Positions 605 through 16,285 of a stretch of 64,000 nucleotides of DNA are shown in pieces. The notes under the pieces were generated by a model that was not told where the DNA came from, searched no databases, and saw nothing but the letters and a program-made list of their open reading frames with translations. Every line of letters begins with the position of its first letter. Position 1 is the stretch's first letter. The translations under genes and the position numbers were made by a program. The stretch comes from Blastocatellia bacterium. Lineage in GTDB: Bacteria > Acidobacteriota > Blastocatellia > Chloracidobacteriales > Chloracidobacteriaceae. The stretch spans positions 1-64,000 of the forward strand of contig JAIBAN010000034.1 of the NCBI GenBank assembly GCA_019695185.1, written 5' to 3'.

Positions 605-1645
605 TTATCGACTTTGATTGACAAAACGACGAGTATCACCCAGAAACCATCTGATGTTAGCGGCTTCACGTTGCCGGGTCAGCCAGTTTTGAAACAGAGT
701 CTCGGTGAGTCTTTCCGCAAAAGTATGGTCCGCCTCGACAGGAACAAGTCTCAAAACCATCCGGACTGAATTGTGAGATTCAACTGGCAAGATCATGGGA
801 AAGGCAGCACCATTGATTAATGGTTGGGGGTCAATTCCCAGTTTCACACAGGAATTGACTTCCAAACGGGTTTCCTGCGGGAAATTGGTGGCACTCTGTG
901 CAAAGGCTGCCCAAACGGTTTCAGAAGTTTGCGGCGAGGCTGCAAAGGACTCGGCACTGGCCATGTCAGAGAAAACCAGTTCACAAACCTGAACCATTCG
1001 CAGATTGGCCTTGAAGGCATCAGCATCCTCCAGTCGAGCTAATTCTTCCTTCCGGAGGCGGTCCCGCAGCTTGCGATAGGACGCGCGGGAAAGCATCTGT
1101 GCTTCCAGTCGTTCAGTGGTCAGACCATTGACAGTCATCCAGTTTTCCATGACTTCACGGGACAGCAAATTCCGGTGGCGGCGGAAATCGTCAAACTCCT
1201 GTTGTAATTCCTCATCACTGACGGGAATCGGATGCTGCCTCAGTTCGGACTGGAGCAGGCAATAATCAACAATGTGTTGAACGACGTGGGGGATATTCCA
1301 AATATTGTCCAGGGCGGAAACGGCATTGTGAACCTGCAGGGTGTAATCGTTTACGGTAACCAAGTCCTGGGCTCCTTCGGAACCGTCTGTCGCCCAACGC
1401 AACGACCAACTGGCAACCTTATGGGGAGTCAATCCAATTTGCAAAGTACCTGTTTCAAGCAAAGCAAAAACATCATATTCGTGCAGGTCAATATGGGCCC
1501 GGTGCGTGCTGACCAGACGCAATGGGGGCGTCAGATGGGTTTTCTTAATCTGTTCAAATCCCGCCTGTACTTCTTCAGGCGTGGAGTGGGATGCGTGAAC
1601 TAACAAATCAACAATTTGCTGCAAAGCTTCAGCCGATATCGTCAC
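605..1645 (-). CDS. PpiC/SurA-like RiPP peptide-maturation protein
   Basis: A 346-residue protein, predicted cytoplasmic because no signal peptide or membrane segment is visible. The C-terminal two thirds (from about residue 130) resemble the SurA-N plus parvulin (PpiC) layout: a helical segment with D-E-E-L-Q-Q-E-F and W-M-x-x-N-G-L, then a parvulin-like half. From memory it fits the PpiC-related 'putative peptide maturation system' family found next to ATP-grasp RiPP ligases. The N-terminal ~130 residues are of unknown fold. Start is GTG at 1645, with GGAG 11 nt upstream inside the end of the ATP-grasp gene, whose stop lies 4 bp away, so the two are translationally close. The protein is related to the second half of the protein at 3381-4529. 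Isomerase, chaperone or precursor-binding function is inference. Confidence 0.72.
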   Translation of the reverse strand: MTISAEALQQIVDLLVHASHSTPEEVQAGFEQIKKTHLTPPLRLVSTHRAHIDLHEYDVFALLETGTLQIGLTPHKVASWSLRWATDGSEGAQDLVTVNDYTLQVHNAVSALDNIWNIPHVVQHIVDYCLLQSELRQHPIPVSDEELQQEFDDFRRHRNLLSREVMENWMTVNGLTTERLEAQMLSRASYRKLRDRLRKEELARLEDADAFKANLRMVQVCELVFSDMASAESFAASPQTSETVWAAFAQSATNFPQETRLEVNSCVKLGIDPQPLINGAAFPMILPVESHNSVRMVLRLVPVEADHTFAERLTETLFQNWLTRQREAANIRWFLGDTRRFVNQSR

Positions 1646-1649
1646 AGGT

Positions 1650-2624
1650 TCAAATTCTCCATTTTTCAGTTTTGGGATAAGGCTCTTTGGCCATCTGAAT
1701 CAAATAATCAGCCACAGCGCCGGAAATGTTGAGGCCGGTTAAATTCTCGAGCCAGAGCCATTCACCCGTCGGATTGACTTCCAAAAACACATATTCGTTT
1801 TTGTCGGTCACAATCATGTCAACGGCCCCATAGCGCAACCCCAGGGCCTGCTGGAGTTCGAGCACCCGTTCGGCAACAGATGGCGGAAGCTGATGCTCGC
1901 GGTGGGTTACCGCAATAAAATCATAATGGCGAAAGTCCAGGGTGGTCCGGTGGCTGGCTTGGGAATCAATTTCAACAGCAAACAAACGGTCGCCAACCAC
2001 GGTGATGCGGATTTCCTTTCGTTTGGAAATTTTTTTCTGGAAAATGGATGGCCCATAATCCAATGAGCAGATATGCCGTAACATTTGTGGGGTGACTGCC
2101 TGTGTAAAGGTCCCGGCCCGACCCAACTCACGCCAGGATTTTACGAAGAGGGGTTTGGAAATAACCGCGCCATCATGGCGGGAATAAAATTCCAGCGCTT
2201 CCTCGAAATCATTTGAGATGAGGGTTTCCGGCAGGTTCAGGCCACATTCCAAGGCTGCCTGAAACTGGAGGGTTTTCCGCTCAATCAATTGAATCCGAAG
2301 CATGGAAGCTGGGAAAATGGGGCGTTCCAACAACGTCATCCAGTCTTCAAAAAGTATCTGACAGTCTACATTTTTTAAGTGCTGAAATGGGTCGGGTCGG
2401 CTGGGATTTCCCAGTTTACGACTCCAGATTGCCTGGACCTCACTCCAGTCAAAATCAAGGGCTGGGCTGCGAAACCGTCTGCGGTGGGGAAACTCGACGG
2501 AAAGATGGGCCTGAGTTGGCACGTCCTCCCAAAATATTTCTCCGACCCTAATTCCTTTGGCTTTGAGTTGAGGAAGAACCCGCTCGACGTGCAGGTCGCC
2601 TTTGTAGCTTGAAATGACAATCAT
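1650..2624 (-). CDS. ATP-grasp RiPP ligase, MvdC/MvdD-like (graspetide type)
   Basis: A 324-residue ATP-grasp enzyme. The N-terminal pre-ATP-grasp part begins M-I-V-I-S-S-Y-K-G-D and contains S-R-K-L-G-N-P. The central part carries the nucleotide-binding lysine region (V-I-S-K-P-L near residue 150) and the C-terminus has the Mg-binding E-V-N-P-T-G-E-W-L-W-L-E motif followed by T-G-L-N-I, which is the hallmark ending of microviridin/graspetide ligases. Known family members use ATP to join Asp/Glu side chains to Ser/Thr (ester) or Lys (amide) in a precursor. I chose ATG at 2624; a TTG at 2636 would add four residues, and neither has a clear Shine-Dalgarno. The gene follows the precursor gene after a hairpin and precedes the PpiC-like gene. 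Only one ligase is present, whereas microviridin loci have two. Confidence 0.88.
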   Translation of the reverse strand: MIVISSYKGDLHVERVLPQLKAKGIRVGEIFWEDVPTQAHLSVEFPHRRRFRSPALDFDWSEVQAIWSRKLGNPSRPDPFQHLKNVDCQILFEDWMTLLERPIFPASMLRIQLIERKTLQFQAALECGLNLPETLISNDFEEALEFYSRHDGAVISKPLFVKSWRELGRAGTFTQAVTPQMLRHICSLDYGPSIFQKKISKRKEIRITVVGDRLFAVEIDSQASHRTTLDFRHYDFIAVTHREHQLPPSVAERVLELQQALGLRYGAVDMIVTDKNEYVFLEVNPTGEWLWLENLTGLNISGAVADYLIQMAKEPYPKTEKWRI

Positions 2625-2642: not shown

Positions 2643-2686
2643 GAAGGTAAAAACACAACATCCTCGCCCGATATGAGCGAGGATGT
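2643..2686 (-). terminator. Hairpin plus T-tract between precursor and ligase genes (attenuator)
   Basis: A perfect 10-bp stem (ACATCCTCGC at 2658-2667 pairing with 2677-2686) with a 9-nt loop is followed on the minus strand by a T-rich tail (TTGTGTTTTT). It lies between the precursor stop at 2736 and the ligase start at 2624. It would act as a partial terminator, giving much more precursor transcript than enzyme transcript, an arrangement common in RiPP operons. The stem and tail are seen; the leakiness is inferred from the absence of another promoter. Confidence 0.7.
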
Positions 2687-2735
2687 CAATCTTGGTCTCA
2701 GTTGTCGTTCGCGGAGGAGAGTTCCATTACGGATT

Positions 2736-3098
2736 TTACGGTAATGCCGGGCCAATAGGGCCTCCGATGGTACCGCCAGAAGTGTCATTCATATCCGTTG
2801 GGTTGGAACCATTATTCACATCGCCTCCCCCCAATCCATCAGCAGAGCGCGTTCCTCCACCAGTGTTTGTGGTGCCACCGCCAGTGTTCCCTGCCGCGTC
2901 AGCAAATATGTCAGTATAGCCAGGTAAACTGCTGCCTCCTCCAGAACTGGTGTCAAAACCACTGCCACCAGTGGCAGCAATATCCTGAGTATAGCTGGTG
3001 GTACCATCTCCGCCAATTACACTGACCAATGTGGGTGCATTGAGGTCCACCAGGGTGGTTTGATTCATTTCGATGTCGGTAATTTTGATGCGTGCCAT
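2736..3098 (-). CDS. Graspetide-like RiPP precursor peptide with Gly-Gly leader
   Basis: A 120-residue peptide starting M-A-R-I-K-I-T-D. The start at 3098 is fixed by AGGAG about 10 nt upstream; the frame is open further upstream but without a comparable site. Residues 1-30 form a leader ending V-S-V-I-G-G, a double-glycine site suited to the C39 exporter at 5496. The presumed core (31-120) is about 90 residues: roughly 25 Gly, 14 Thr, 9 Ser and 9 Asp, with no Cys, Lys or Glu. Thr/Ser hydroxyls and Asp carboxylates are the partners used by graspetide ligases, so ester cross-links are expected; absence of Lys argues against amide links. GGG-T motifs recur at 73-83. The core is long for the class. 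Ring pattern and bioactivity cannot be read from sequence. Confidence 0.8.
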   Translation of the reverse strand: MARIKITDIEMNQTTLVDLNAPTLVSVIGGDGTTSYTQDIAATGGSGFDTSSGGGSSLPGYTDIFADAAGNTGGGTTNTGGGTRSADGLGGGDVNNGSNPTDMNDTSGGTIGGPIGPALP

Positions 3099-3380: not shown

Positions 3381-4529
3381 ATGACGACCGATCTGCCTCC
3401 CCAATTAATGGAACTTTTATGCCTACGTGTGCTTGAAGGGCCAGCTTTGGGAGACGTGTTTCCTTTTGACCAGCCTTTCAAAAAAGTAGGTGACCCGCAA
3501 TCACCGGCAGAATTTCGTTTGGAGCTGAACGACACAGCGGCTGAAGCAAATTTGGTTACGTTTCATCGCCGGGATGTGCGACCTGAGCCGCCTCATATTT
3601 CCATCGAGGTTGAGCGACGCAGCACGGACTTGTGGCACAATGGTTTTTTGTTGTTGGGGCAGACCTGTAACCTTTATCCGGCAGATATGTTTCGGATTGG
3701 CGATTCCACCTTGCGGGTTGAACGATTCACCCCGGCGGCCCGGCGGCCCGCCTATCGGCTTTTTCCCTGGGAAAGTCTGCTTTCCTTCCAGCATCCTGAA
3801 GCCGACCGGATTTTATCGAGCGCCCTGACCTATGCCGCCTGGTTGGATGGAGCCCGCTTTCTGGACAAAGCCATTGAAGGATATGTGGTCGTCCGCGAGG
3901 CAACCAGCCGTGGGCTGGAAGTGGATGATGATGCTTTGCAGGAAGCAGCCGATACATTCAGAACCGAAAGAGGGCTGCTCAAAGCTGCGGCTTTTCACAG
4001 TTGGCTCAAACAGCATCGCCTCACACTGGACGGTTGGGAGCAAATGATGGTGGAAGACCTGCTGCGGGCAAGGTTGTCATCAGTGGTGATTTCAGAGGAC
4101 CGGATTTCCGAGTATTTTGCCCTCAACCGACGGAATTTTGACGAAATCGAGTTGGCCATGTGTTTGGTCAGGGAGGTTGGCATGGCTGACGAAATTGCGG
4201 CCCAATCACGCGAGTCGGTCGAAGCCTTTTATGCCCTTTCCCGAATCTATTCAGTGGACCCGGCCACGGCCCCTCAGGGTGGGTATCGCGGTTGGGTTAG
4301 ACGAACCGAAGTTCCGGTCTGGGCGGCTGACATTTTGTTCAGCATGTCACCCCGCTCCCTTCATGGCCCGGTTTTTGAAAACGGTGTCTGGGCTTTATAT
4401 CTGGTTCATGACATCAAGCGCGCCAGCCTTGACCCGGCCGTCCACAAAAAAATTGGCGAGCTCTTATTTGCTGAATGGCTTCGTCCACTGGTCGCTCAGG
4501 AAAGTTTTAAGCTTACAGTTGCGGGGTAA
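3381..4529 (+). CDS. FHA-like/PpiC-like fusion, peptide-maturation partner
   Basis: 382 residues, no signal peptide. Residues 10-115 look like a degenerate FHA domain: it opens L-C-L-R-V-L-E-G-P-A-L-G-D and closes with H-N-G-F-L-L-L ... M-F-R-I-G-D-S-T-L-R-V-E, the typical last strands, but the phosphothreonine-binding G-R/S-x-x-H positions are not recognisable. Residues ~140-380 match the same SurA-N/parvulin layout as the protein at 605-1645 (D-D-A-L-Q-E-A-A-D-T-F-R versus D-E-E-L-Q-Q-E-F-D-D-F-R). It heads the plus-strand operon, 6 bp before the membrane-fusion gene, divergent from the precursor. A role in presenting precursor to the ligase or exporter is inferred from position. The FHA assignment is tentative. 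Confidence 0.7.
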   Translation: MTTDLPPQLMELLCLRVLEGPALGDVFPFDQPFKKVGDPQSPAEFRLELNDTAAEANLVTFHRRDVRPEPPHISIEVERRSTDLWHNGFLLLGQTCNLYPADMFRIGDSTLRVERFTPAARRPAYRLFPWESLLSFQHPEADRILSSALTYAAWLDGARFLDKAIEGYVVVREATSRGLEVDDDALQEAADTFRTERGLLKAAAFHSWLKQHRLTLDGWEQMMVEDLLRARLSSVVISEDRISEYFALNRRNFDEIELAMCLVREVGMADEIAAQSRESVEAFYALSRIYSVDPATAPQGGYRGWVRRTEVPVWAADILFSMSPRSLHGPVFENGVWALYLVHDIKRASLDPAVHKKIGELLFAEWLRPLVAQESFKLTVAG

Positions 4530-4535
4530 AGTGAA

Positions 4536-5489
4536 ATGCCGAGATGGCTTCTCAGACCCACACCATTTTTGCTGATTGCACTGGCGTTGGGACTCAGTCT
4601 GGTGGCGGTTGCCAGTCTGGCTTTCTTTTCCAACCTCAATCGTGAGAGAACCACCGCTCCAGTACCCACAGAGCCTCCTGCTCCAGCCCAACTTGCTCCA
4701 CCTGTTGAAACAACAGCACCTCAAGCAACTTTGGCTCCGGCTCAAGCCGCAGGCCAAATTCGGGTGGCTGCTCTCATCTGGTCAAGTGAGGTCAGAACGG
4801 TACTGGCTCCGCGTGCCGGTCAAATTACGGCTTTTTTGTGCCATGAAGGACAGGATGTGCCAGCCCACATGGTTCTGGCACGACTGGATGACCGGGATGT
4901 GGCGGTGGAATTGCAGCATATTGAAAACCGGCTGGAGGTTGCCCATATAGATTTAAGCCGACTGGAGGCCATACACAAACTGTCCACCGCCGACCTTAAC
5001 CGTTACAGGGAACTTCTTTCCGCCGGCCTCAGCAGCCGGCAGGATGTGGACCGTAAGGAACTGGAGGTTTTTCAAGCGGCCATGGCGGCTGAAAAAATCC
5101 GGGTGGAGATCAAAAACCTGACCGTCGAAATTAACCGCTTGCGCAACGAACTGGACCGCTGTGCGATTACCGCGCCGATTTCCGGACGGGTCATTCGCTG
5201 TCTGGCAAAAGAAACCGAACATGTCAATCCAGGTGGCAAAATCTGTGAAATTGCCAACCCCTCCAAACTTGAGATTCGGTTCCGGTTGACAGGGGAAGGA
5301 CCGCGTTTCAAATCAGGGGACCGGGTGACAGTCTGTGCCCCAGGTGAAACGACCCCATTGGCTTTGGGGGTCATTCAGAACACCGCATTCCCTTTGTTGT
5401 TGCCCAACACTGACGAAATTGAATACACCGCCCGGCTCGACACCGGTCGTGCGCTCACTATTGGTATGGCGGTTGAAGTTGTTTGGTAA
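4536..5489 (+). CDS. HlyD-family membrane-fusion protein (exporter adaptor 1)
   Basis: 317 residues. One N-terminal membrane segment (about 8-30) is followed by a Pro/Ala-rich linker, a lipoyl/biotinyl half-motif around V-L-A-P-R-A-G-Q-I, a helical hairpin (about 130-205, with L-L-S-A-G-L-S-S-R-Q-D-V), the second lipoyl half (I-T-A-P-I-S-G-R-V) and a beta-barrel domain. This is the periplasmic adaptor layout of type I secretion. It begins 6 bp after the FHA/PpiC gene and ends 6 bp before the C39-ABC transporter, so it is almost certainly co-transcribed and part of the same export complex. The coiled coil is short. No TolC-like outer membrane partner lies in the window. Confidence 0.85.
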   Translation: MPRWLLRPTPFLLIALALGLSLVAVASLAFFSNLNRERTTAPVPTEPPAPAQLAPPVETTAPQATLAPAQAAGQIRVAALIWSSEVRTVLAPRAGQITAFLCHEGQDVPAHMVLARLDDRDVAVELQHIENRLEVAHIDLSRLEAIHKLSTADLNRYRELLSAGLSSRQDVDRKELEVFQAAMAAEKIRVEIKNLTVEINRLRNELDRCAITAPISGRVIRCLAKETEHVNPGGKICEIANPSKLEIRFRLTGEGPRFKSGDRVTVCAPGETTPLALGVIQNTAFPLLLPNTDEIEYTARLDTGRALTIGMAVEVVW

Positions 5490-5495
5490 CTTTGT

Positions 5496-8495
5496 ATGAC
5501 GGCGCTGACTCCTGAGCAAAAAAACCTGGTTCAACAATCCTCCATTTGGGCTGGACTGGCACCTGATCAAGTGAACGGTTTGGTGGCACAGGGAAATCTG
5601 CGGGAGTTTTCCTTTGGTCAGTATGCCGCTCAGTCAGGGGATTCCTGCCAAACGGTTTCCCTGGTATTGACTGGTACGATGCGCCTTGTCTGCAAAGCCT
5701 CGAACGGAACAGAGGCTACCTTGGATTTGGCCAAGTCCGGCGCTTTTTGGTCTGGCTCTTTGTCAGAATTTTCGGAACCGCTTCCGTTTTCTGTTCGGGC
5801 AGCAACAGCCGCGCAGGTGTTTGAGCTTCCACTGGACACTTTAACGTCGTTTTTTTCTCAATCTCCAGCTTTGCGTGCCCAACTGACAGAACGTTATTCC
5901 CGGTTACAGGGGCTGTCCCGCTTGCGGCGGGCTCCAGTATTAAACGAGTTGAATCCGGAAGCTTTGAACAATCTCCTCCAGGCAGCTCAACCAGAACGAC
6001 TCCCTGCCGGTCAGAGGTTTTCATTTCAGGGCGGCGCAACCGGGTCTTTGTTTTTGATTGAAACGGGGACCGGATTTTTGACGGGAATGAACGGGACAGC
6101 CTCTTTTCAGGTGATGCCGGGAGGGTTATATGAAACTGCTGTTACCCAAGGGACAACAGTTACTCCGGTCTATCTGACGGCGGAATCGGATGTCACTTTT
6201 CTGGTACTTGACCGGACCAAAATACCGGCGACAACCGAATCCCACTCCAGTGCCCAGGTTACCCAATTTCTGGAGCGCAAGGCCATTCACCCTCGACTGG
6301 AATCCGAGGTGGCAACTCTGGCAGCCGAGAATGTCACTGTTTGGAATGGCTGGTTTCGGCGTAACCGGATCCCGCTGGTACGCCAAATCAACGAAAAAGA
6401 CTGTGGGGCAGCTTCGCTCACGAGTGTCCTCCGTCATTACGGGAAGTCAGTAACCCAGACCTATGTGCGGGAACAGCTTGGGATCGGAAGGGAAGGCATC
6501 ACCCTTTTTCACTTGGCTCGGGGAGCAGAAAAACTGGGATTTGAAACCCGTTCGGTCAAAGGGACCCTCGATTTGATTGCCGGGACCCGCCTGCCTGCGA
6601 TTCTCCATTGGGAACAGAATCATTATGTGGTGCTCTATCGGGTGGCCGGCAGCCGGGTGACACTGATGGACCCAGCCAAAGGAATCCGGCAACTGGACCG
6701 CGAGGCGGTTCACAAAGGCTGGGATGGACTGGCCCTGCTGCTCACACCAACAGACCGACTGGCTGACTCTCAACCGCATGCCAATCTGTTGCGCCCCTTT
6801 CTGAAAATTATCTTTTCTGATGGACAAATGTTTCGGGAAGTGTTGTTGGTCTCGGCTGCCCTTCAGATTCTGGCTTTGGGCGGTCCTGTTTTCATGCAAC
6901 TTGTGATTGACCGGGCTTTGGTGCTGCGGAGCCCCTCTTTGCTTACCTTGATTGTGACTGGAATGATTCTGGTGGCGACCTTTGAGATTGTTTTTGCACA
7001 ACTGCGCCAGTTCCTTTTTACAGCAGCCGCCCAACGAATTGACCTCAGGTTGATGACTTCGTTTTACCGCCATGTGCTACATCTGCCCTATCGTTTTTTC
7101 GAAGACCGAACGGTGGGTGATATCATCAAAAGATTTTCGGACAACACCCTGATTCGAGATCTTTTTACTGGAAAAGTCATAGATTTGACGCTTGGATTGG
7201 TAACCGCCGTGAGCTACCTCTTTCTCATGGTGGCCTATAGCCCAGGTCTGACTGTGGTGGCTCTGGCAACCATTCCAATTCAAATCGGAATGGTTTTGTT
7301 GCTGACTCCCTGGTTGCGGGAACGGTATCGGGAACAATTCAAAAAAGACGCCACCTCGCAGTCTTTTCTGGTTGAAACCATCACAGGTATTCGCACGGTG
7401 AAAGGGTTGGCCATTGAAGCCCCCTGCGCCTGGCGTTTTGAAGATGTCTTGCTTGAGAGTACCCGCAATCGCTTTCGGACCATGGAGATTTCAGTCTCAG
7501 TTGGCATATTTTCACAAACCTTGTTTCGGCTGAATTCTATCATTCTGTTGTATTTAGCTGCTCAGGCTGTCCTGGCTGGAAAAATGTCCATTGGGCAGAT
7601 GATAGCCTTCCAAACTTTGGCCAACGGGGTGGTGGCACCGATTTTAGGGTTGGTGGGGTTTTGGACTTCAATTCAGGAAGTCAAAGTGGCGCTTGAACGA
7701 CTGGCAGAAGTCTATCAGACCAAAAGCGAGATTGGACCGGGGGCCGGACAATTTCAATTACCTGAAATCAAGGGCAGAATTGAATTTCAGAATGTTTCGT
7801 TTGCCTATCCCAGCCGTGAGGAAAGAAAAGTCCTCAAAAACACCTCATTGGTCATTCAGCCGGGCCAAGTGGTTGGGATTGTTGGGCGTTCAGGAAGCGG
7901 GAAAACCACGCTCATCAACCTGATCATGCGGTTTTATGAGCCAACCGAAGGAAAAATCATGCTGGACGGGCAGGATATTTCCTATCTGGACCTCGATGAA
8001 CTACGCCGTTCCATCGGATTTGTCTCTCAGGAAACATTTCTGTTTGACCGGAGTATCCGCGACAACATTTGCGTTGCGGATCCTGATCTACCCCTTTCCG
8101 AAGCGGTTCTCGCCGCGCAAATAGCCGGCGCGCATGATTTCATTTCCGAACTTCCCTATGGCTATGAAACCCGGCTTGGGGAGGGCAGCCATACCATCTC
8201 CGGGGGCCAGCGCCAACGCATTGCCATTGCGCGGGCATTGGCTGGCGCACCCCGGCTGTTGATCTTTGATGAAGCAACCAGCGCCCTCGACACGGAAACC
8301 GAACGGGCCGTTCAGGAACGGCTCCGAAGTTCCTTTGGCTCGCGGACGACGTTGATTGTGACCCATCGTTTGGCAACCGTGCGCGAAGCAGATAGAATTT
8401 TAGTGGTGGACAGTGGCGAAATCGTTGAGGATGGAACCCATGAGGAACTGCTGGAGGCCCGTGGCTTGTATCACTATCTGTGGCGCAACCAGTAA
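5496..8495 (+). CDS. C39-peptidase ABC exporter with two cNMP-binding-like domains
   Basis: A 999-residue bacteriocin-type exporter. Residues ~10-145 and ~150-280 each resemble a cyclic-nucleotide-binding (Crp-like) beta-roll. Next is a C39 peptidase with catalytic Cys303 (K-D-C-G-A-A), His376 (N-H-Y-V-V-L) and Asp392 (M-D-P-A-K-G). About six membrane helices (~430-720) follow, then an ABC ATPase with Walker A G797-T804 (G-R-S-G-S-G-K-T), signature S902-Q905 (S-G-G-Q) and Walker B D925-E926. C39 domains cut after Gly-Gly leaders, which fits the I-G-G end of the neighbouring precursor leader. N-terminal cNMP modules occur in some exporters of this family; whether these bind ligand is unknown. 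It is the last gene of a three-gene operon. Function is well supported; substrate is inferred from context. Confidence 0.93.
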   Translation: MTALTPEQKNLVQQSSIWAGLAPDQVNGLVAQGNLREFSFGQYAAQSGDSCQTVSLVLTGTMRLVCKASNGTEATLDLAKSGAFWSGSLSEFSEPLPFSVRAATAAQVFELPLDTLTSFFSQSPALRAQLTERYSRLQGLSRLRRAPVLNELNPEALNNLLQAAQPERLPAGQRFSFQGGATGSLFLIETGTGFLTGMNGTASFQVMPGGLYETAVTQGTTVTPVYLTAESDVTFLVLDRTKIPATTESHSSAQVTQFLERKAIHPRLESEVATLAAENVTVWNGWFRRNRIPLVRQINEKDCGAASLTSVLRHYGKSVTQTYVREQLGIGREGITLFHLARGAEKLGFETRSVKGTLDLIAGTRLPAILHWEQNHYVVLYRVAGSRVTLMDPAKGIRQLDREAVHKGWDGLALLLTPTDRLADSQPHANLLRPFLKIIFSDGQMFREVLLVSAALQILALGGPVFMQLVIDRALVLRSPSLLTLIVTGMILVATFEIVFAQLRQFLFTAAAQRIDLRLMTSFYRHVLHLPYRFFEDRTVGDIIKRFSDNTLIRDLFTGKVIDLTLGLVTAVSYLFLMVAYSPGLTVVALATIPIQIGMVLLLTPWLRERYREQFKKDATSQSFLVETITGIRTVKGLAIEAPCAWRFEDVLLESTRNRFRTMEISVSVGIFSQTLFRLNSIILLYLAAQAVLAGKMSIGQMIAFQTLANGVVAPILGLVGFWTSIQEVKVALERLAEVYQTKSEIGPGAGQFQLPEIKGRIEFQNVSFAYPSREERKVLKNTSLVIQPGQVVGIVGRSGSGKTTLINLIMRFYEPTEGKIMLDGQDISYLDLDELRRSIGFVSQETFLFDRSIRDNICVADPDLPLSEAVLAAQIAGAHDFISELPYGYETRLGEGSHTISGGQRQRIAIARALAGAPRLLIFDEATSALDTETERAVQERLRSSFGSRTTLIVTHRLATVREADRILVVDSGEIVEDGTHEELLEARGLYHYLWRNQ

Positions 8496-8591
8496 GATCA
8501 AAGAAATGAAGGGTGAAATTTAGATTGTCAGATCAAAATCCGGCAGGTTTCTTTTTCTGACAGACGATAGATACAACCCGTCTGAGGAAGC

Positions 8592-9485
8592 TCAAGAGGT
8601 CTGTTTCCGCACGGCTTCCCACATCAATTGAAAGGGTGTTTTCCGTTCGGTGACCAAAACGGCTTTGCCTTCAAACCCAATGCGCAGCGCAATACCCCGG
8701 CGGCGCAGTTGGTCTTCCGGTTCGTCCACCTCAATTTTCAACAGATATGCTGCCTGAGCCCCTGTTTTGGTAATGACTTCCGGCGAAATAGACAGAACCT
8801 TCCCCGAAACCGTTCCGAACTGAAAAGCAGGATAAGCATCAAGTGTAACTGTGGCGTGAAGTCCCGGATAAAGCTGACGGGCATCTCTGGTCGGCAGCGC
8901 GCATTCCAGAATCAAACCGGTCCCGTCGGGTATGACATCCACTAGTGTGTCCCCCCGGTTCACTAGCATCCCCACATTAGGATGATGGACTTTCCCGACC
9001 GTGCCATTACAAGGAGCCAAAACTTTGGCACGTTCCAGTTCCCGCTCCAGGGTTTTGATTTGGGTCCGCAGGCGGGAAGCCTCGGCAGCCAAGCGGAGCA
9101 ATTGCGTATCTTCGGCTCCGACCAAACGGGCTTTTCGCATTTCATCATCCAGCAAGGCAACATTTGAACGGAGGGCAGTCAGAGTTTCCAGCCGCTCTTG
9201 GGCATCGATTTCCATAACCAAGGTGCCGGCAGTCACTTTGTCTCCTTCAGCAACCCTGACTGCCGCCACCTTCCCGCTTAACTCGCTTTGCACAAGGCGG
9301 AGTTCCCCTTTGGCTGCCAGCACGCCGTTTACCTCAACCGGCAATTCGATTTTTGCCAGCACCGACCAACCCAAAACTGTAACAAACAGTGTCAGGGTCA
9401 CATGCAGCAAAAGGCGGGAAAGCCGCATGGAAAATTCACCAAACCAGAGTCTGGCATCCTGCTGTTCAGATGGCTCATCGGGCAT
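8592..9485 (-). CDS. HlyD-family membrane-fusion protein (exporter adaptor 2)
   Basis: 297 residues from ATG 9485, chosen because AAAGG lies about 8 nt upstream and because an in-frame GTG at 9569 falls inside the terminator of the upstream gene. A short cytoplasmic tail is followed by one membrane helix (about residues 20-40, L-L-L-H-V-T-L-T-L-F), a lipoyl half (G-K-V-A-A-V-R-V-A-E-G-D), a coiled coil of about 60 residues, the second lipoyl half (V-L-A-P-C-N-G-T-V-G-K-V) and a beta-barrel. It is divergent in sequence from the adaptor at 4536 and closer to NHLM-type bacteriocin adaptors. It converges on the C39 exporter. Two adaptors with one exporter may mean a mixed complex or two alternative ones. 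Confidence 0.82.
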   Translation of the reverse strand: MPDEPSEQQDARLWFGEFSMRLSRLLLHVTLTLFVTVLGWSVLAKIELPVEVNGVLAAKGELRLVQSELSGKVAAVRVAEGDKVTAGTLVMEIDAQERLETLTALRSNVALLDDEMRKARLVGAEDTQLLRLAAEASRLRTQIKTLERELERAKVLAPCNGTVGKVHHPNVGMLVNRGDTLVDVIPDGTGLILECALPTRDARQLYPGLHATVTLDAYPAFQFGTVSGKVLSISPEVITKTGAQAAYLLKIEVDEPEDQLRRRGIALRIGFEGKAVLVTERKTPFQLMWEAVRKQTS

Positions 9486-9547
9486 GGAAAAACCTTTCAC
9501 TTTTGAATCTTGTAAAATTGCTGAATTGGCGCTGGCATTTGATTTTA

Positions 9548-9595
9548 CAAAAAAAGAAAAAGCCGCCACAACCCATACGCGGGCATGTGGCGGCT
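9548..9595 (-). terminator. Rho-independent terminator of the giant NHL gene
   Basis: A perfect 10-bp stem (AGCCGCCACA at 9561-9570 with 9586-9595) and a 15-nt loop are followed on the minus strand by TTTTTCTTTTTTTG. It lies 30 bp past the stop of the NHL-repeat gene and about 60 bp before the start of the next minus-strand gene, so it separates the two transcription units. Confidence 0.85.
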
Positions 9596-9625
9596 ATCAG
9601 CCTTTGAAGCCAACCTGCTGGATGG

Positions 9626-12600
9626 TTATTGTGGGCTGGTTAAGGATTTTCGGTTACTAACGGTTCCGGTTGAGGTGACATACCTGAATTCAGCCAGTCG
9701 GGCTGGAGCTTTCACCACCAGACGCCAGCGCCGGGTTACTTGGTCAAACGATTGTTCGATGATTTCCACCGGTTCCCATACCTCTGTCTTTCCTGCATTT
9801 TGATTTGCTTCAACCTTGGAAACTGTCTCGTTTTCGGCGATTTCCAGCATCATTTGATTTTCAGACAGGGTTGGCAAAGATTCCACGCGGCGAAGTCCGC
9901 GCAGTTCTTTGGGGTTGAGTCGGGGTTGAGGCGTTAACATGGGTTTGGAGGAAGGTTCAGCCTTCGAGCCGACCAACGGAGTTCGAAAAACCGGAAGTTG
10001 CCCTGAAAATGATTTCAATGGTTGAGTTGCTGGCAAACTCAAGTCATTGGATTCCAGAATGACAGATCTCCCATTCCCTAAAACAGCCTGGGCACGAATG
10101 AGAAGATTCCCATCACGTTCGATTCCACTCAGAAGAGGGACAAAATTCTTTCCATTGTCCTTTGAGTAAAAAGAACGCTTTCGGGGAGTGGTGGTATCAA
10201 TGGTGGCCAGCGGTTTGGTTCCACTTGAGTTGGGTTGCAGCAATTGAAACCCAACATAAAAATCACCTGAAGGCAGAGTGGCAGGTTTGGTTATGAAAAG
10301 ATTGGTAGCAAAGTCCGCAGTGGTGCCGTCGTTGGTAATTTGATAGGCATCGGCAGCCAATACCTCCAACTGCCCGGTTCGGTTTGGGTCACCCAAAACA
10401 TAAACTCCAATGGTTACGCCAACACTGGAAGCACGTCCTGTAAAAGCCCGATTGTTAAATGAAATCGCAACCTGATTGATGGTGGCAGGATAACTGGGAG
10501 GCGTGAGTTGGTTGATAAAAACCTCTTCTGGGTCAGCTTGAAAACCAAGTTCCAGTCGTCCGTCATCAATTGAAAGAGTTTGAGCGGTGTTTTCCTCCTC
10601 AGCCACAATTGCCAGCCCATAGAGAGTTGCCCGGTTTCCAGGCTCGTCAAATAAACTGACACCAATATAATAGGTTCCTGCCGGCAAGGTTTGCGGGGCA
10701 ATGATTTCAGGTTTTCCACCGATTGTATTGGATTCATCCACCTGAAACGGGAATCCATTTCCTGAGGTCAGGTTTCCGTTAAACAAATACACATCCACAT
10801 CCGATTCGTCATCAACCCAGTCAACTTCAATCGAAACCGTGGTTGGGCGGGTCAAGGTGAATTTATAAAGGTCTTCGATGCCATCGCGTGAACCATCCGT
10901 AAATGTAAGAAAAACATCCCCTTTTCTGTCATTGGGAGCCAGATTTCCGATGAGCCCATCATTTACATTTATAACCTGGGCAGTTTGAGGAGTGTCATTG
11001 GGCTCGGTTTCATATTTGAAGTTACCGCTCGTTGAAGCACCGGTTGGCCCCACACCAGGGTCAGCCACGGGTGCGGCGACACCCTTGAGGGCCCGGACCC
11101 GATTGTTTCCAATTTCAGAAACCAGCAGATTTCCATTTCTATCCAAAACCAATGCTCCCGGAAAAGAAACCGTAGCATCCGGGCCGCGCCCTCCTTCGCC
11201 TTTATAAATCAGGTATTGAGCATTTCCAGCCACGGTGGAAATGGTTTGGGTTCCCGGTGTCACTTTCCGAACCCGCATGGAAAAATCCGCGATAAACAGA
11301 TTCCCTGTGTTATCCACGGCGATTCCAGCCGGAAAGGGAATATCGGAATTCAAAGCCGTCAACCCATCATTGGAAATTCGATTTCCTCCTGTTCCCGCCA
11401 CCGTCGTGATGATACCAGATTTGGCATCTACTCGTTTGATCTTGTTGTTTCCCGAATCAGCAATAAAAAGATTTCCATCCCGGTCAAAAGCCAACGCACT
11501 AGGGACGTTGAGAGTTGCGTTTCGGCCAAGGCCGCCGGTACCCGTATCCCCTCGCACCCCGGTACCGGCAACTGTGGTAATGATACCGGTTTGGGCATCA
11601 ATCCGCCGAATCCGATGGGCTCCCTGTTCACACAAAAAGAGATTTCCATTTCCATCGGCTACAACATCTGTGATGAAGAAAAACGAGGCTGAGAGCGCGG
11701 AAACTCCATCCAGATAGGAGCCGTTCTCATCACCTGTACCAGCCAGTAGAATCAGATTTCCGGCGGTATTAATTCGGTACAGTTGCTGGTGCAAAATATC
11801 CATGAAAACCATTTCACCGGTTTTCAACACGTCAATACAGGAAGGAAGGATTGAAGCGCTCAAAGCCGGTGTATTGGTTATGGGAGTAGTCCTTCGCTGG
11901 CCGTCTCCGGCAATAGTCAGGATTTGGCTGGAACCCCCTAACGTCCGGCGAATTCTGGCCCCATTATAATCTGCCACCAACATGGTGCCATTCCGATCAA
12001 TCGCCACATCGTAAACTGAAACCAGCCGGGCGTTTGTCGCAGGACCGCCATCACCTGTCATGGTTTGCGTGTCACCTTCAATGAGGGTGCGAACCAAGCC
12101 TGTCTGAGCATCAACAACCCGCACCCGATTATTGTAAGTATCTGCAATATAGATGTTTCCTGCCCCATCGGAGACTGCCGAAACAGGGAAGAGCAAATCT
12201 GAAACAGTAGCTTGCACTCCATCCGCACCCCGTCCTGGACGCCCGGTTCCAACCGTTGCCCGTAACAAGCCTGTGTTTTTTTCAACCCGCCAGATTCTGT
12301 GGTCTGAATAATCCGTAATCAGCAAATCACCGCTTGGGGTAACCGAAACCCCGGAAATTCCTGAAAACGGGCTGGAAAGGGCAGGTACATTATTGATGGG
12401 GGTACCCTCTGACCCTGTCCCGGCAACACGCGAGATTACCCCTGTGCGCGCGTCAATCCGGCGCACTGTGAAGTTAAACGAATCGGGAAAATAGAAATTC
12501 CCATCCGCATCCACACTGCATTGAGCGCCAATCGGGCGAAAAATTCCAAAGTAATCAGGATCATGAATAAAAATGGAGGCGGCTTTTGCCGGGCCTCCGT

Positions 12601-15061
12601 CACCAAAGTTGCCCGCCCGCCCGGTACCAGCCACAGTTGAAATAATTCCTTGGGGGGAAATCTTTCGAATTCGCTGGTTGCCTCCATCCAGCACAAAGAG
12701 ATTGCCAGCCGGATCAATTGCCAGCCCCACTATTGGAGAGGCAAAGCTTGCCTGTAAGGCGGGGCCTCCGTCTCCGACAAACCCTGAGTTCCCATTGCCG
12801 GCAAAAACAGTGGCAACGTTGGTTAAACCATCTACTTTGATTATTCGCAGGTTATTATTGTCAATTGCATAGATGTTTCCTTGGTTGTCCAAAACCGCAT
12901 CATAAGGGTTGGTAATGGGTGTGGCGGTGGCCAGTTGGTTGGGTTGTAAAAAAGACGCCTCCGAAACATACTGCCCGGTCCCCAAAATTGTCGTAATAAT
13001 GCCGGTTGAAACATCAAACCGACGGACCCGCTGGTGCGCGGTATCGGCAATCAAAAGATTCCCGTTTCCATCCACATGGATGTTGCTTGGAACATTGAGC
13101 ACTGCCTGTGACCCCATTCCCCCATCCCCAACAAAGCGGGAACCACCGATAACCGTGGTGATGGAACCTGCCGAAAGCGTTCCAAAGTCAGGTGGTGTCA
13201 AGGAAAAACGGGTCTGGGCAATCCCACCCCGATGTTGCACCGTGAGTGTCTGAAGCCCACTTGACTCGTTCATCGGAGTGGTAATGGTCAATTGGCGGGT
13301 GCTTTCAAAAGTGACCTGCTGAACTGGAATCCCATCCAGCAAAACCACCGAATCGGGAGCAAAATTACGCCCAATAATGGTGACTTTCGCAGATGTGCGA
13401 ATAGGGGTTGAACTGGGAGTTACCAAGGTAATTTCCGGCGGGGCAATCGTCACCCGGCTCAGTTCTGAACCAGTCGTATTGAGCACTACCGCGTCGTTGA
13501 TGGAAATTCGAAAAGAGGATGGATTTCCCAACGCGCTTGCCGGTGCCAAAGAAATGCCATCAAAAAACTGTCCATCTCGTTGCAGCAAGACCTGGATACC
13601 GTTTTGGTCCCCGACATAGACATTCCCCACCGCATCAACCCCAATCCCCTGAGGCTGCATTAAGCCAAATCCAGGTCCGGTTTGTTGGTTCGGGGTATAA
13701 GCAGTGCGGGACAGAAAACTGACATTGGCCCGGCTGATGGTTTTCACCACGCCGCTCATGGAAACCTGGCGCACGGCGTTATTGCCGGAATCTGCCACGT
13801 TCAAAATCTGGGAGGATTGGTCCAGTTTTAATCCAACCGGCCGGTTAAACCGGGCATTGCTTCCGGTTCCATCAAGCAACCCGCTCTGGCCGGCGGCTCC
13901 AGCCACAGTGGTTACAACCCGCCGGGTAAAATCAATGTACCGGATAGTATGGTTTTCCGTGTCCGATACATAAAGATTGCCCACCCGGTCCAGCTCAATT
14001 CCCCGTGGGTTGCGAAACTGCGCAGAGGTCAGCGGACCATCGGCGGAACCGGCCACCCCACTGCCCACCATCGTCACCACCGTATCATTGGGAAGCACCG
14101 CCCGAATTACATTGTTGACAGTGTCGGCAATGTAAATGTTGCCGCTCCGGTCATCTATGGCAATGCCAACCGGAGTATTAAACAACGCCTGCAACCGCTG
14201 GCCATCCTGTCGGCCATTTTGGCCGTTGCGTCCGGCAAAGGTTTGCGGGGTATCCAAAAAACCATTCCGCCGCCGGATGATATGCTGGAGTGTATTGGAA
14301 ACATAAATCCGGCCGGCTTGGTCCGTTACCAAAACGCCTTCACCGGGAATGCTTTGGTCGTTTGAACGCTCAACCTTGGTCACAGTCACGGTCAACCCCG
14401 TTGTGGAGTTTCCTGACTGGGCTGTAATCGTGGCAAACCCACGAGTCACACCGCTGACAAGCCCTGTGCTGCTGACCGAGGCAATTTCCGGACTGTTGGA
14501 TTGAAATGTGACCGGTGCGTTTGGAATCGGATTCCCTTGGGCGTCCAGGGCCTCTGCCCGCAACTGGAGGGTTCCTCCTTCGGTTGTGACCGGGTCCACC
14601 GGAACAAAGCGGATTCCACTTGAGTTTCCCCCGCCTCCGCCTCCGGTTCCTACTTTGATGGAAATCGCGTTGGAACGGCTTCCATCGGCATTGATGGCGA
14701 TTACTTGCAAGGTGGCGTTTTCAGCAAACAGTCCCGCTGGAACCTGTTTCCCTTTGATTTGGATTTTCGTGGTGCCGGTTACTTTTCCGGCAGCATTACC
14801 GCTCAAACCGGATTTGGATATTTCCAGACTGGCAGCGGAAGTAAACCCGCTCCCGGTGGCGACTATCTTCTTGGGGACTTCCCCAACCGCAATTTCAGCC
14901 GGGGATACACTGGAAAGAACCGGCCCTGATTGGGCCTGTGATTTGTTCCGTTGACCAACACTGGCAAAGGAAAGTGTCAGGATTGTCAAAACAATGGTGG
15001 CGTAAATAAACCGTTTGGTGCGAAAAGCAGTATCGGTGTGGTAATGAGCAGGTATCATCAT
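9626..15061 (-). CDS. Giant secreted NHL-repeat protein with IPT, Big_2 and PPC domains
   Basis: 1811 residues. A signal peptide (about 1-43, hydrophobic F-I-Y-A-T-I-V-L-T-I-L-T) is followed by an IPT/TIG-like domain, a Big_2-like domain (about 150-230), a first NHL propeller, a second IPT domain (P-E-I-T-L-V-T-P), and then two further propellers' worth of NHL repeats. I count about 17 NHL blades by the N-L-F-I-A-D/N-x-R-I-R-R signature: five before and twelve after the second IPT domain. Near the C-terminus is a PPC-type domain (E-T-E-P-N-D-T-P-Q-T-A). Such proteins are extracellular or surface adhesive scaffolds; no anchor motif is seen. Start ATG 15061 has AGG 6 nt upstream. It shares its front modules with the protein at 40482-43037. 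Confidence 0.85.
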   Translation of the reverse strand: MMIPAHYHTDTAFRTKRFIYATIVLTILTLSFASVGQRNKSQAQSGPVLSSVSPAEIAVGEVPKKIVATGSGFTSAASLEISKSGLSGNAAGKVTGTTKIQIKGKQVPAGLFAENATLQVIAINADGSRSNAISIKVGTGGGGGGNSSGIRFVPVDPVTTEGGTLQLRAEALDAQGNPIPNAPVTFQSNSPEIASVSSTGLVSGVTRGFATITAQSGNSTTGLTVTVTKVERSNDQSIPGEGVLVTDQAGRIYVSNTLQHIIRRRNGFLDTPQTFAGRNGQNGRQDGQRLQALFNTPVGIAIDDRSGNIYIADTVNNVIRAVLPNDTVVTMVGSGVAGSADGPLTSAQFRNPRGIELDRVGNLYVSDTENHTIRYIDFTRRVVTTVAGAAGQSGLLDGTGSNARFNRPVGLKLDQSSQILNVADSGNNAVRQVSMSGVVKTISRANVSFLSRTAYTPNQQTGPGFGLMQPQGIGVDAVGNVYVGDQNGIQVLLQRDGQFFDGISLAPASALGNPSSFRISINDAVVLNTTGSELSRVTIAPPEITLVTPSSTPIRTSAKVTIIGRNFAPDSVVLLDGIPVQQVTFESTRQLTITTPMNESSGLQTLTVQHRGGIAQTRFSLTPPDFGTLSAGSITTVIGGSRFVGDGGMGSQAVLNVPSNIHVDGNGNLLIADTAHQRVRRFDVSTGIITTILGTGQYVSEASFLQPNQLATATPITNPYDAVLDNQGNIYAIDNNNLRIIKVDGLTNVATVFAGNGNSGFVGDGGPALQASFASPIVGLAIDPAGNLFVLDGGNQRIRKISPQGIISTVAGTGRAGNFGDGGPAKAASIFIHDPDYFGIFRPIGAQCSVDADGNFYFPDSFNFTVRRIDARTGVISRVAGTGSEGTPINNVPALSSPFSGISGVSVTPSGDLLITDYSDHRIWRVEKNTGLLRATVGTGRPGRGADGVQATVSDLLFPVSAVSDGAGNIYIADTYNNRVRVVDAQTGLVRTLIEGDTQTMTGDGGPATNARLVSVYDVAIDRNGTMLVADYNGARIRRTLGGSSQILTIAGDGQRRTTPITNTPALSASILPSCIDVLKTGEMVFMDILHQQLYRINTAGNLILLAGTGDENGSYLDGVSALSASFFFITDVVADGNGNLFLCEQGAHRIRRIDAQTGIITTVAGTGVRGDTGTGGLGRNATLNVPSALAFDRDGNLFIADSGNNKIKRVDAKSGIITTVAGTGGNRISNDGLTALNSDIPFPAGIAVDNTGNLFIADFSMRVRKVTPGTQTISTVAGNAQYLIYKGEGGRGPDATVSFPGALVLDRNGNLLVSEIGNNRVRALKGVAAPVADPGVGPTGASTSGNFKYETEPNDTPQTAQVINVNDGLIGNLAPNDRKGDVFLTFTDGSRDGIEDLYKFTLTRPTTVSIEVDWVDDESDVDVYLFNGNLTSGNGFPFQVDESNTIGGKPEIIAPQTLPAGTYYIGVSLFDEPGNRATLYGLAIVAEEENTAQTLSIDDGRLELGFQADPEEVFINQLTPPSYPATINQVAISFNNRAFTGRASSVGVTIGVYVLGDPNRTGQLEVLAADAYQITNDGTTADFATNLFITKPATLPSGDFYVGFQLLQPNSSGTKPLATIDTTTPRKRSFYSKDNGKNFVPLLSGIERDGNLLIRAQAVLGNGRSVILESNDLSLPATQPLKSFSGQLPVFRTPLVGSKAEPSSKPMLTPQPRLNPKELRGLRRVESLPTLSENQMMLEIAENETVSKVEANQNAGKTEVWEPVEIIEQSFDQVTRRWRLVVKAPARLAEFRYVTSTGTVSNRKSLTSPQ

Positions 15062-15466
15062 TCGTACCTCAATATGTGAAAGTCAATAAGCGAAAAGAAA
15101 ATCCAGATACGTTGTGAATGGGAGGTTTGATGCCTGAAATCCCCGGAATCTGGAAAAAAAACGAGGCCGGGCAGAGGGCTTCAATCCAGGCAGGAACGAG
15201 GATGGGCAGCTTCCAGCCATAAAAACTGGCAGTGAAGTCTTGAGTCATAAAAGTCTTCACCTATTGAAAAAAGTTCAACAAGGAGCACCCGCAATCATAC
15301 ACCGGACAAGAATCAAATGCCAAACTCCCGTTTTAGATTGTCCAACCGGTCCGAAATCGGATAGAAATGCCGAGATGCAACCCAAGCTGGGAGTGGGTGC
15401 AGCGTGACCGTCAATCCCGGTTCACCTTCATTTCCTTTCCGAGTCAAGTAAAAGGAACGTTTTTTC
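15062..15466. other. Divergent intergenic region before proC
   Basis: About 400 bp between the giant NHL gene (minus) and proC (plus). It must contain promoters for both. A small inverted repeat (GTGAAG near 15232 and CTTCAC near 15255) is the only structure I noticed. No coding frame is convincing. Confidence 0.4.
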
Positions 15467-16285
15467 ATGTTGAAAGGCAAACGCATTGCAATCGTTGGTG
15501 CCGGAAAACTGGGCGAAGCCCTGGTGACCGGACTGCTCCATCGCGGAGACGTTGAATCCAAACACATTATTGCCACTGTGGCGCGGACCGATTCGCTCCA
15601 ACGAGTGCGCGAACGGCTGGAAGTGGAAGCAATAACCGACAATCGAACCGCCGTCACCGGGCGCGACGTGGTGTTGCTGGCAGTAAAACCGCAAAACATG
15701 GCCAAGGTTTTAAAAGAAATCTATCCAGTAGCCCAGACCAATCAGCTTTTTATCAGTGTGGCCGCCTCGGTCACGACCGCTTTTATCGAAGAACGTCTGC
15801 CTGAGGGGTGTTCCGTAATTCGGGTCATGCCCAACACTCCGGCTTTGCTCAACGAAGGCATGTCGGTTCTGTGCAACGGCAAAAACGTCTCGAAGGAACA
15901 ACAGGCCATCGCCGAATACATTTTTGGCGCAGTGGGACGGACGGCCTTCCTGGACGAGAAACTGATGGATGCTGTGACAGGGCTTTCCGGTAGCGGCCCG
16001 GCCTACATTTACGTGGTCATCGAAGCGTTGGCCGAAGCAGGCGTCAAGCTGGGAATTCCCCGCGATGTTTCCACCCTGCTGGTGGCCCAGACCATGCTTG
16101 GAGCCGCTCGCATGACCCTCGAAACCGGCCAGCATCCAGCCCTGCTTAAAGACACCGTGACGACGCCCGCCGGATGCACGATTGATGGCTTGATGGAACT
16201 GGAGGAAGGCAAACTCCGGGTGACCCTGGTGAAAGCTGTGGTCAAAGCCGCTGAACGTGCCCGCGAACTGGTTCGGACGGAGTAA
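15467..16285 (+). CDS. proC: Pyrroline-5-carboxylate reductase
   Basis: 272 residues, the usual length. Catalyses the last step of proline synthesis, NAD(P)H reduction of 1-pyrroline-5-carboxylate to proline, in the cytoplasm. The N-terminal Rossmann motif is I-A-I-V-G-A-G-K-L-G-E-A (residues 5-16). The V-M-P-N-T-P-A segment and the family signature around G-S-G-P-A-Y-I-Y-V-V-I-E-A with D-T-V-T-T-P-A-G-C-T are all present. ATG 15467 is preceded by AAAAGGAA. proB lies 1 kb downstream with an HAD-hydrolase gene between; proA is not in the window. Confidence 0.96.
   Translation: MLKGKRIAIVGAGKLGEALVTGLLHRGDVESKHIIATVARTDSLQRVRERLEVEAITDNRTAVTGRDVVLLAVKPQNMAKVLKEIYPVAQTNQLFISVAASVTTAFIEERLPEGCSVIRVMPNTPALLNEGMSVLCNGKNVSKEQQAIAEYIFGAVGRTAFLDEKLMDAVTGLSGSGPAYIYVVIEALAEAGVKLGIPRDVSTLLVAQTMLGAARMTLETGQHPALLKDTVTTPAGCTIDGLMELEEGKLRVTLVKAVVKAAERARELVRTE

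Follow-up and report, generated by a model that had tools for sequence, protein, structure and literature searches.

The 64-kb window, by which we mean the whole stretch of DNA analysed (64,000 nucleotides of an 8.3 Mb genome in 222 contigs, which its relatives place in the class Blastocatellia of the Acidobacteriota), carries near its start a gene cluster arranged as two divergent sets. On the minus strand, the gene for a 120-residue putative precursor peptide (2736..3098) is followed by that for an ATP-grasp graspetide synthetase of the MvdC/MvdD/TIGR04187-like type (1650..2624) and by PpiC1 (605..1645), which encodes a MirC-like partner protein, a divergent TIGR04500 member with a SurA-like C-terminal domain. 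The export set beside them comprises PpiC2 (3381..4529), a HlyD-family membrane-fusion protein, HlyD (a) (4536..5489; PF13437), and a peptidase-containing ABC exporter (5496..8495), all on the plus strand, with a second HlyD-family protein, HlyD (b), on the opposite, minus strand (8592..9485; PF13437 and PF16576; a GTG at 9569 would give a longer form). Only 604 bases separate PpiC1 from the start of the window, which is also the end of the contig, and the cluster may therefore be incomplete on that side. Within the cluster we found no further precursor-like ORF, and no protease other than the C39 domain of the exporter is encoded beside the precursor. The gap between the precursor and synthetase genes holds a hairpin with a T-rich stretch (2656..2688, minus strand), a candidate partial terminator whose fold of -24.6 kcal/mol lies five standard deviations below shuffled sequences (z -5.0), in a scan for such sites that returned one site against 1.0 expected in shuffles. 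This hairpin could possibly hold the precursor transcript above that of the enzymes.

The exporter combines cNMP-binding, C39 peptidase, ABC membrane and ATPase domains (PF03412, PF00664, PF00005, PF00027), and its best NCBIfam match is the HlyB-type TIGR01846. Its C39 residues C303, H376 and D392 are intact, and the Walker motifs and signature are present. The N-terminal cyclic-nucleotide-binding domains (5496-6350) are also found on exporters of the same module at L125, L147 and L184. PpiC2 is a SurA/parvulin PPIase-type protein (Rotamase, PF00639; 26.7 bits against a cut-off of 21.7) of the export-module chaperone type; genes of its type adjoin C39 exporters at L147 and L184 and HlyD at L183. 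Compared with a cyanobacterial relative of 260 aa at L147, its N-terminal part (3381-3800) carries about 140 extra residues, which have no Pfam match and by eye recall an FHA-type beta domain; the AlphaFold model of PpiC2, built from four sequences, is usable in the parvulin domain only.

The precursor ORF (3098-2736) begins with an ATG immediately preceded by an AGGAG Shine-Dalgarno-type site. Its first 30 residues form a leader ending in a double glycine (residues 29-30), and residues 31-120, a core of 90 aa, would be the mature peptide if cleavage falls after the GG, with an unmodified monoisotopic mass of 8269.65 Da (~8.27 kDa). The leader has the features expected for C39 export, namely hydrophobic residues at -12, -7 and -4 (L-12, L-7 and V-4) and Gly at -2 and -1, with an exporter nearby whose C39 residues are intact; the same leader residues are present in 48 of 49 precursors from related clusters. 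At its N-terminus the box RIKITDI fits the pattern [KRT][IT]x[IL]x[DEN][IL] of the family, and none of 20,000 shuffles matched as well. Since precursors at L184, an export module with no synthetase in view, have the box too, it may be common to double-glycine leaders in general. The C-terminal half of the leader fits the family weakly (p 0.04), and a profile of the relatives' leaders scored the whole leader at a non-significant 4.4 bits (E 9.1). A leader-like DNA pattern occurs once in this genome, at the precursor gene.

The sequence-only reading of this ORF had described a Gly/Thr/Ser/Asp-rich core of about 90 residues free of Cys, Lys and Glu, with irregularly spaced motifs, and residue counts confirmed that description. 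The core consists of 25 Gly, 14 Thr, 9 Asp, 9 Ser, 7 Ala, 6 Asn, 5 Pro, 4 Ile, 3 Leu, 2 Tyr, 2 Phe and one each of Gln, Arg, Val and Met, and lacks Lys, Glu, Cys, His and Trp. The motifs fall where they had been placed: T33-T34, GGGT at 73-76 and again at 80-83, and D102-x-x-D105-T106. Among 14,616 windows of 90 residues drawn from the other proteins of the 64-kb window, 47 are free of Lys, Glu and Cys, and none combines that with at least nine Asp and at least 23 Ser/Thr. The irregular spacing also held up, with no significant internal repeat in a self-alignment of the core against 300 shuffles (best score 38, shuffle mean 39; 170 of the 300 equal or better). Lanthipeptide chemistry is ruled out by the Cys-free core and by the lack of a lanthionine synthetase in the cluster. 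By hexamer score the precursor frame is the best of six across the full ORF (+6.4, with the runner-up at -10.9), and nearly the whole signal comes from the leader (+11.6), the core being about neutral; coding statistics thus back the leader strongly and the core weakly.

No match to the precursor was found in Pfam or NCBIfam, and no homologous precursor turned up when 84,980 species genomes were scanned by pattern. Nor did the core have homologues at 58 relatives, the best match elsewhere (E 0.025) lying within a long ORF. The absence of a homologous precursor from the data searched counts against a graspetide reading, under which the Ser/Thr and Asp positions would be expected to show purifying selection.

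We identified the synthetase from NCBIfam profiles, comparison with solved structures and a tree. It scored 189 bits with TIGR04184, 188 with TIGR04185 and 177 with TIGR04187, all under the curated cut-offs, and matched the ATP-grasp ligases 5ig8 (E 3e-38) and 7m4s; its ATG start at 2624 agrees with the starts of relatives, with a TTG lying upstream at 2636. The enzyme retains K117, K157, R206, D230, R232, D269, E282 and N284, residues relevant to ATP and acyl-phosphate chemistry whose invariance was judged over 58 other graspetide synthetases. The precursor gene thus adjoins an MvdC/MvdD/TIGR04187-type ATP-grasp with its catalytic residues intact, the arrangement by which the graspetide class is recognised. 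In a tree of 59 synthetases the enzyme falls within a clade partnered with TIGR04500 proteins (27 rows, support 95/93), and it is on average 35% identical to that clade and 31% to the other graspetide synthetases. Its branch is by far the longest in the tree (2.37 against a median of 0.4), and its exact placement within the clade is unsure.

The match of PpiC1 to TIGR04500 is full-length and scores 154.7-155.3 bits, under the curated cut-off of 180, while typical partners in relatives score above it, at 237-362 bits; the sub-cut-off scores of both the synthetase and PpiC1 count against our reading, as do the weak fit of the leader to the family and the neutral hexamer signal in the core. An AlphaFold model of PpiC1 (mean pLDDT 80) has as its top PDB match 3rgc, the SurA-like protein Cj1289, and a PPIase domain is matched by PpiC2 only and not by PpiC1. 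As in the synthetase, the PpiC1 branch is the longest of its tree (2.87 against a median of 0.27), as would be expected if the two enzymes had co-evolved with an altered substrate. Across 396 Acidobacteriota genomes, this genome alone scores well with TIGR04500, the others giving weak SurA-like matches, and the partner profile found two matches in 392 Planctomycetota genomes.

To place the precursor among its relatives, we scanned the same 84,980 species genomes with the ATP-grasp alignment and obtained 80 loci. In about 50 of them, including all of the top-scoring ones, a PpiC1-like gene is present and in nearly every case comes immediately after the synthetase gene; these loci span Actinomycetota, Myxococcota, Cyanobacteriota, Planctomycetota, Gemmatimonadota, Thermomicrobiota and Pseudomonadota. 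The TIGR04500 clusters of Microbispora, Streptosporangium, Nannocystis, Archangium, Hyalangium, cyanobacteria and Herpetosiphon, and that of another Blastocatellia genome (clusters at L087-L130, L085 and L022), share with the window the order precursor, ATP-grasp, partner, and a double-glycine leader with the same N-terminal box. They differ in their cores, which reach at most 31 residues and often contain Cys, Lys or Glu. From the scan loci, a Herpetosiphon plasmid and the other Blastocatellia genome we took 49 precursors; all 49 have a double-glycine-type leader and a core of 31 residues or fewer, against 90 in the window (some were split at a later Gly pair and so are listed too short, which leaves the maximum of 31 unaffected). 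This bears out the earlier expectation that known relatives have far shorter cores: at roughly three times the length of the longest other substrate seen in the partnered family, the window core is a real outlier. In 39 of the 49, Asp or Glu stands among the last four residues, while the last Asp of the window core lies 15 residues from the end; a short core (up to about 31 residues) and an acidic residue near the C-terminus, both traits of group 21 and TIGR04500-partnered precursors, are thus absent here, and the position of the last Asp tells against our reading. A Gemmatimonadota locus, L125, has the same gene set as the cluster here, down to the cNMP type of its C39 exporter and the presence of HlyD and a SurA-like protein, and differs in having several short precursors (for example, with the core QRNLRATETGDVTPGPNGGDTG). 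At 8863-9921 that locus holds as many as four distinct short precursors of the double-glycine kind together with a sigma-54-type activator gene.

The closest described system is rosaritide (MirABCD of Micromonospora rosaria), which was reported in 2026 as graspetide group 21 (PMC13097080). As that source describes it, the synthetase is active only together with its TIGR04500 partner MirC, a result that concerns MirB and MirC only; the product has three esters, with donors Ser8, Ser9 and Thr11 and acceptors Asp22, Asp24 and Asp26, and no lactam; and the closest solved structure to MirC is Cj1289 (PMC13097080). On this description, the two systems share a precursor with a GG leader, an ATP-grasp, a TIGR04500 PpiC-type partner whose model is nearest Cj1289, a C39 exporter, and a supply of Asp acceptors and Ser/Thr donors with no need for Lys. 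They differ in the core (about 26 residues in MirA, with Asp22, Asp24 and Asp26 near the C-terminus) and in the exporter, which is of TIGR03796 type in rosaritide and in the window of HlyB type with cNMP domains, accompanied by HlyD proteins and a second SurA-like protein; the window enzymes are also strongly diverged. Systems of the microviridin MvdC/MvdD type (PDB 5ig8, 5ig9) share the ATP-grasp fold and residues with the window, but have a short core with a Lys lactam and no need for a SurA-like partner.

Taken together, these comparisons make Ser/Thr-Asp ester graspetide chemistry the best reading of the cluster, which we consider likely to be a partner-dependent graspetide system with an unusually long substrate. 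The earlier interpretation is partly supported: a precursor of graspetide type that may form Ser/Thr-Asp esters is well backed by the ATP-grasp, its TIGR04500-type partner and the clade to which they belong, whereas many ester links and a new ring topology are possibilities. In this system the leader would guide the 120-residue precursor to the synthetase-PpiC1 complex, where the synthetase would use ATP to phosphorylate Asp carboxylates of the core, and neighbouring Ser/Thr hydroxyls would attack the phosphorylated Asp to close omega-ester (macrolactone) rings. As had been argued from the sequence, amide links of the Lys lactam kind are excluded within the core because it has no Lys. The C39 exporter would then cleave after Gly30, and export would involve that exporter, the HlyD proteins and the PPIase-type PpiC2, giving an acidic, Gly-rich, ester-bridged polypeptide of about 8.27 kDa, minus 18 Da per ring. 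What the analysis shows directly is the gene content, the homologies, the intact active-site residues, the leader features, the core composition and its outlying length; that this precursor is the substrate, that its bonds are esters, their number, export and any biological role are inferred. Relative to rosaritide-like systems, a substrate of about 20-30 residues would have lengthened to 90, the synthetase and partner would have diverged in step, and a HlyB-type exporter would stand in for the TIGR03796 type. A further step, which we hold only tentatively and think rather doubtful, is that several ester bridges are spread along the non-repetitive 90-residue Gly-rich chain, which the partner would present as a long, unfolded substrate, and that the product is a secreted, ester-stapled small protein. 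To our knowledge, no characterised graspetide has such a ring architecture.

A version of this explanation, compatible with it and with a reasonable if lesser chance of being right, confines the cross-links to a single short segment such as residues 51-67 (SSGGGSSLPGYTDIFAD), the remainder of the core being a flexible tail or later trimmed. That segment resembles the Ser-Ser...Thr-Asp-x-Asp pattern of some relatives, whose small ring systems sit in cores of up to 31 residues (for rosaritide, according to the ring data given in PMC13097080). The pattern SSx6-15[ST]Dx1-3D occurs once in the window core, in 4 of the 49 relatives and in 4% of shuffled cores; however, it was picked after inspecting the sequence and is weakly non-random, Asp and Ser/Thr are distributed across the whole core, and trimming would have to contend with the exporter's protease being the only one encoded beside the precursor. 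We judge it unlikely that the ORF is a secreted Gly-rich peptide, C39-trimmed and exported without cross-links, while the ATP-grasp and PpiC1 serve another precursor, possibly past the contig end. Exporter sets that include a PPIase-type SurA protein do accompany unrelated double-glycine peptides in other genomes, and the nearby contig end may truncate the cluster, yet the ORF immediately precedes the synthetase gene, where the partnered clade usually encodes its substrate, no second candidate stands in the cluster, and the residues missing from the core (Lys, Glu and Cys) are those that esters do not need. Very unlikely is an artefact in which an indel, either real or a sequencing error, removed the stop codon of a precursor of about 50 residues, so that most of the core is read-through: short cores in all 49 relatives, the neutral hexamer signal past the leader and a slightly higher score of another minus frame in codons 61-90 would fit, but 90 open codons of consistent, strongly skewed composition suiting the enzymes, in the frame with the best total score where the other minus frames are broken by 4 and 6 stop codons over the ORF, argue against it.

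On the preferred reading of a partner-dependent graspetide with a long substrate, what would be new is that a member of the TIGR04500-partnered clade has a long core free of both repeats and Lys, graspetide chemistry itself being known. Proposals for what the SurA-like partner does when a graspetide is made include folding, activation and substrate delivery, and a long-substrate member of the clade with co-diverged synthetase and partner offers a natural test of the delivery idea, as well as of the size limit of an ester-linked scaffold made by one ATP-grasp enzyme. We found no other such core in the loci examined or in the part of PMC13097080 covered, and a catalogued relative may exist among the more than 20,000 predicted graspetides of its supplement. 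The long graspetides that this source describes are repeat-built, namely corallotide (group 15), with KxxxD lactams that are hydroxylated afterwards, and groups 34/35 (PMC13097080); as described there, they share unusually long precursors with the window but differ from its core, which has neither repeats nor Lys.

Other graspetide-type loci came to light alongside these comparisons. In two other Blastocatellia genomes (L026:9917-10291 and L029:5486-5845), precursors of about 120 residues adjoin an ATP-grasp and carry three copies of a TETxTxxxxExSDxD-like motif, a long graspetide of the repeat type. The genome of the window itself holds at L023 (G000:C159:56000-75000), 6554-15640, three tandem ATP-grasp genes with a C39 exporter, HlyD and several short precursors that have a common KPFGxExLE-type leader and Asp/Ser/Thr-rich ends, and by this gene content it is classed as a multi-synthetase graspetide cluster. 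In Calothrix (L147:7087-7386), a cluster of PPIase, HlyD and C39-exporter genes also encodes a double-glycine peptide of 99 residues whose tail is rich in Thr, Ser and Gly; its gene adjoins that of a microviridin-type precursor. Directly beyond the cluster in the window, 9626-15061 encodes a secreted-type protein of 1811 residues in which NHL-like and IPT/Big-like repeats can be made out by eye.
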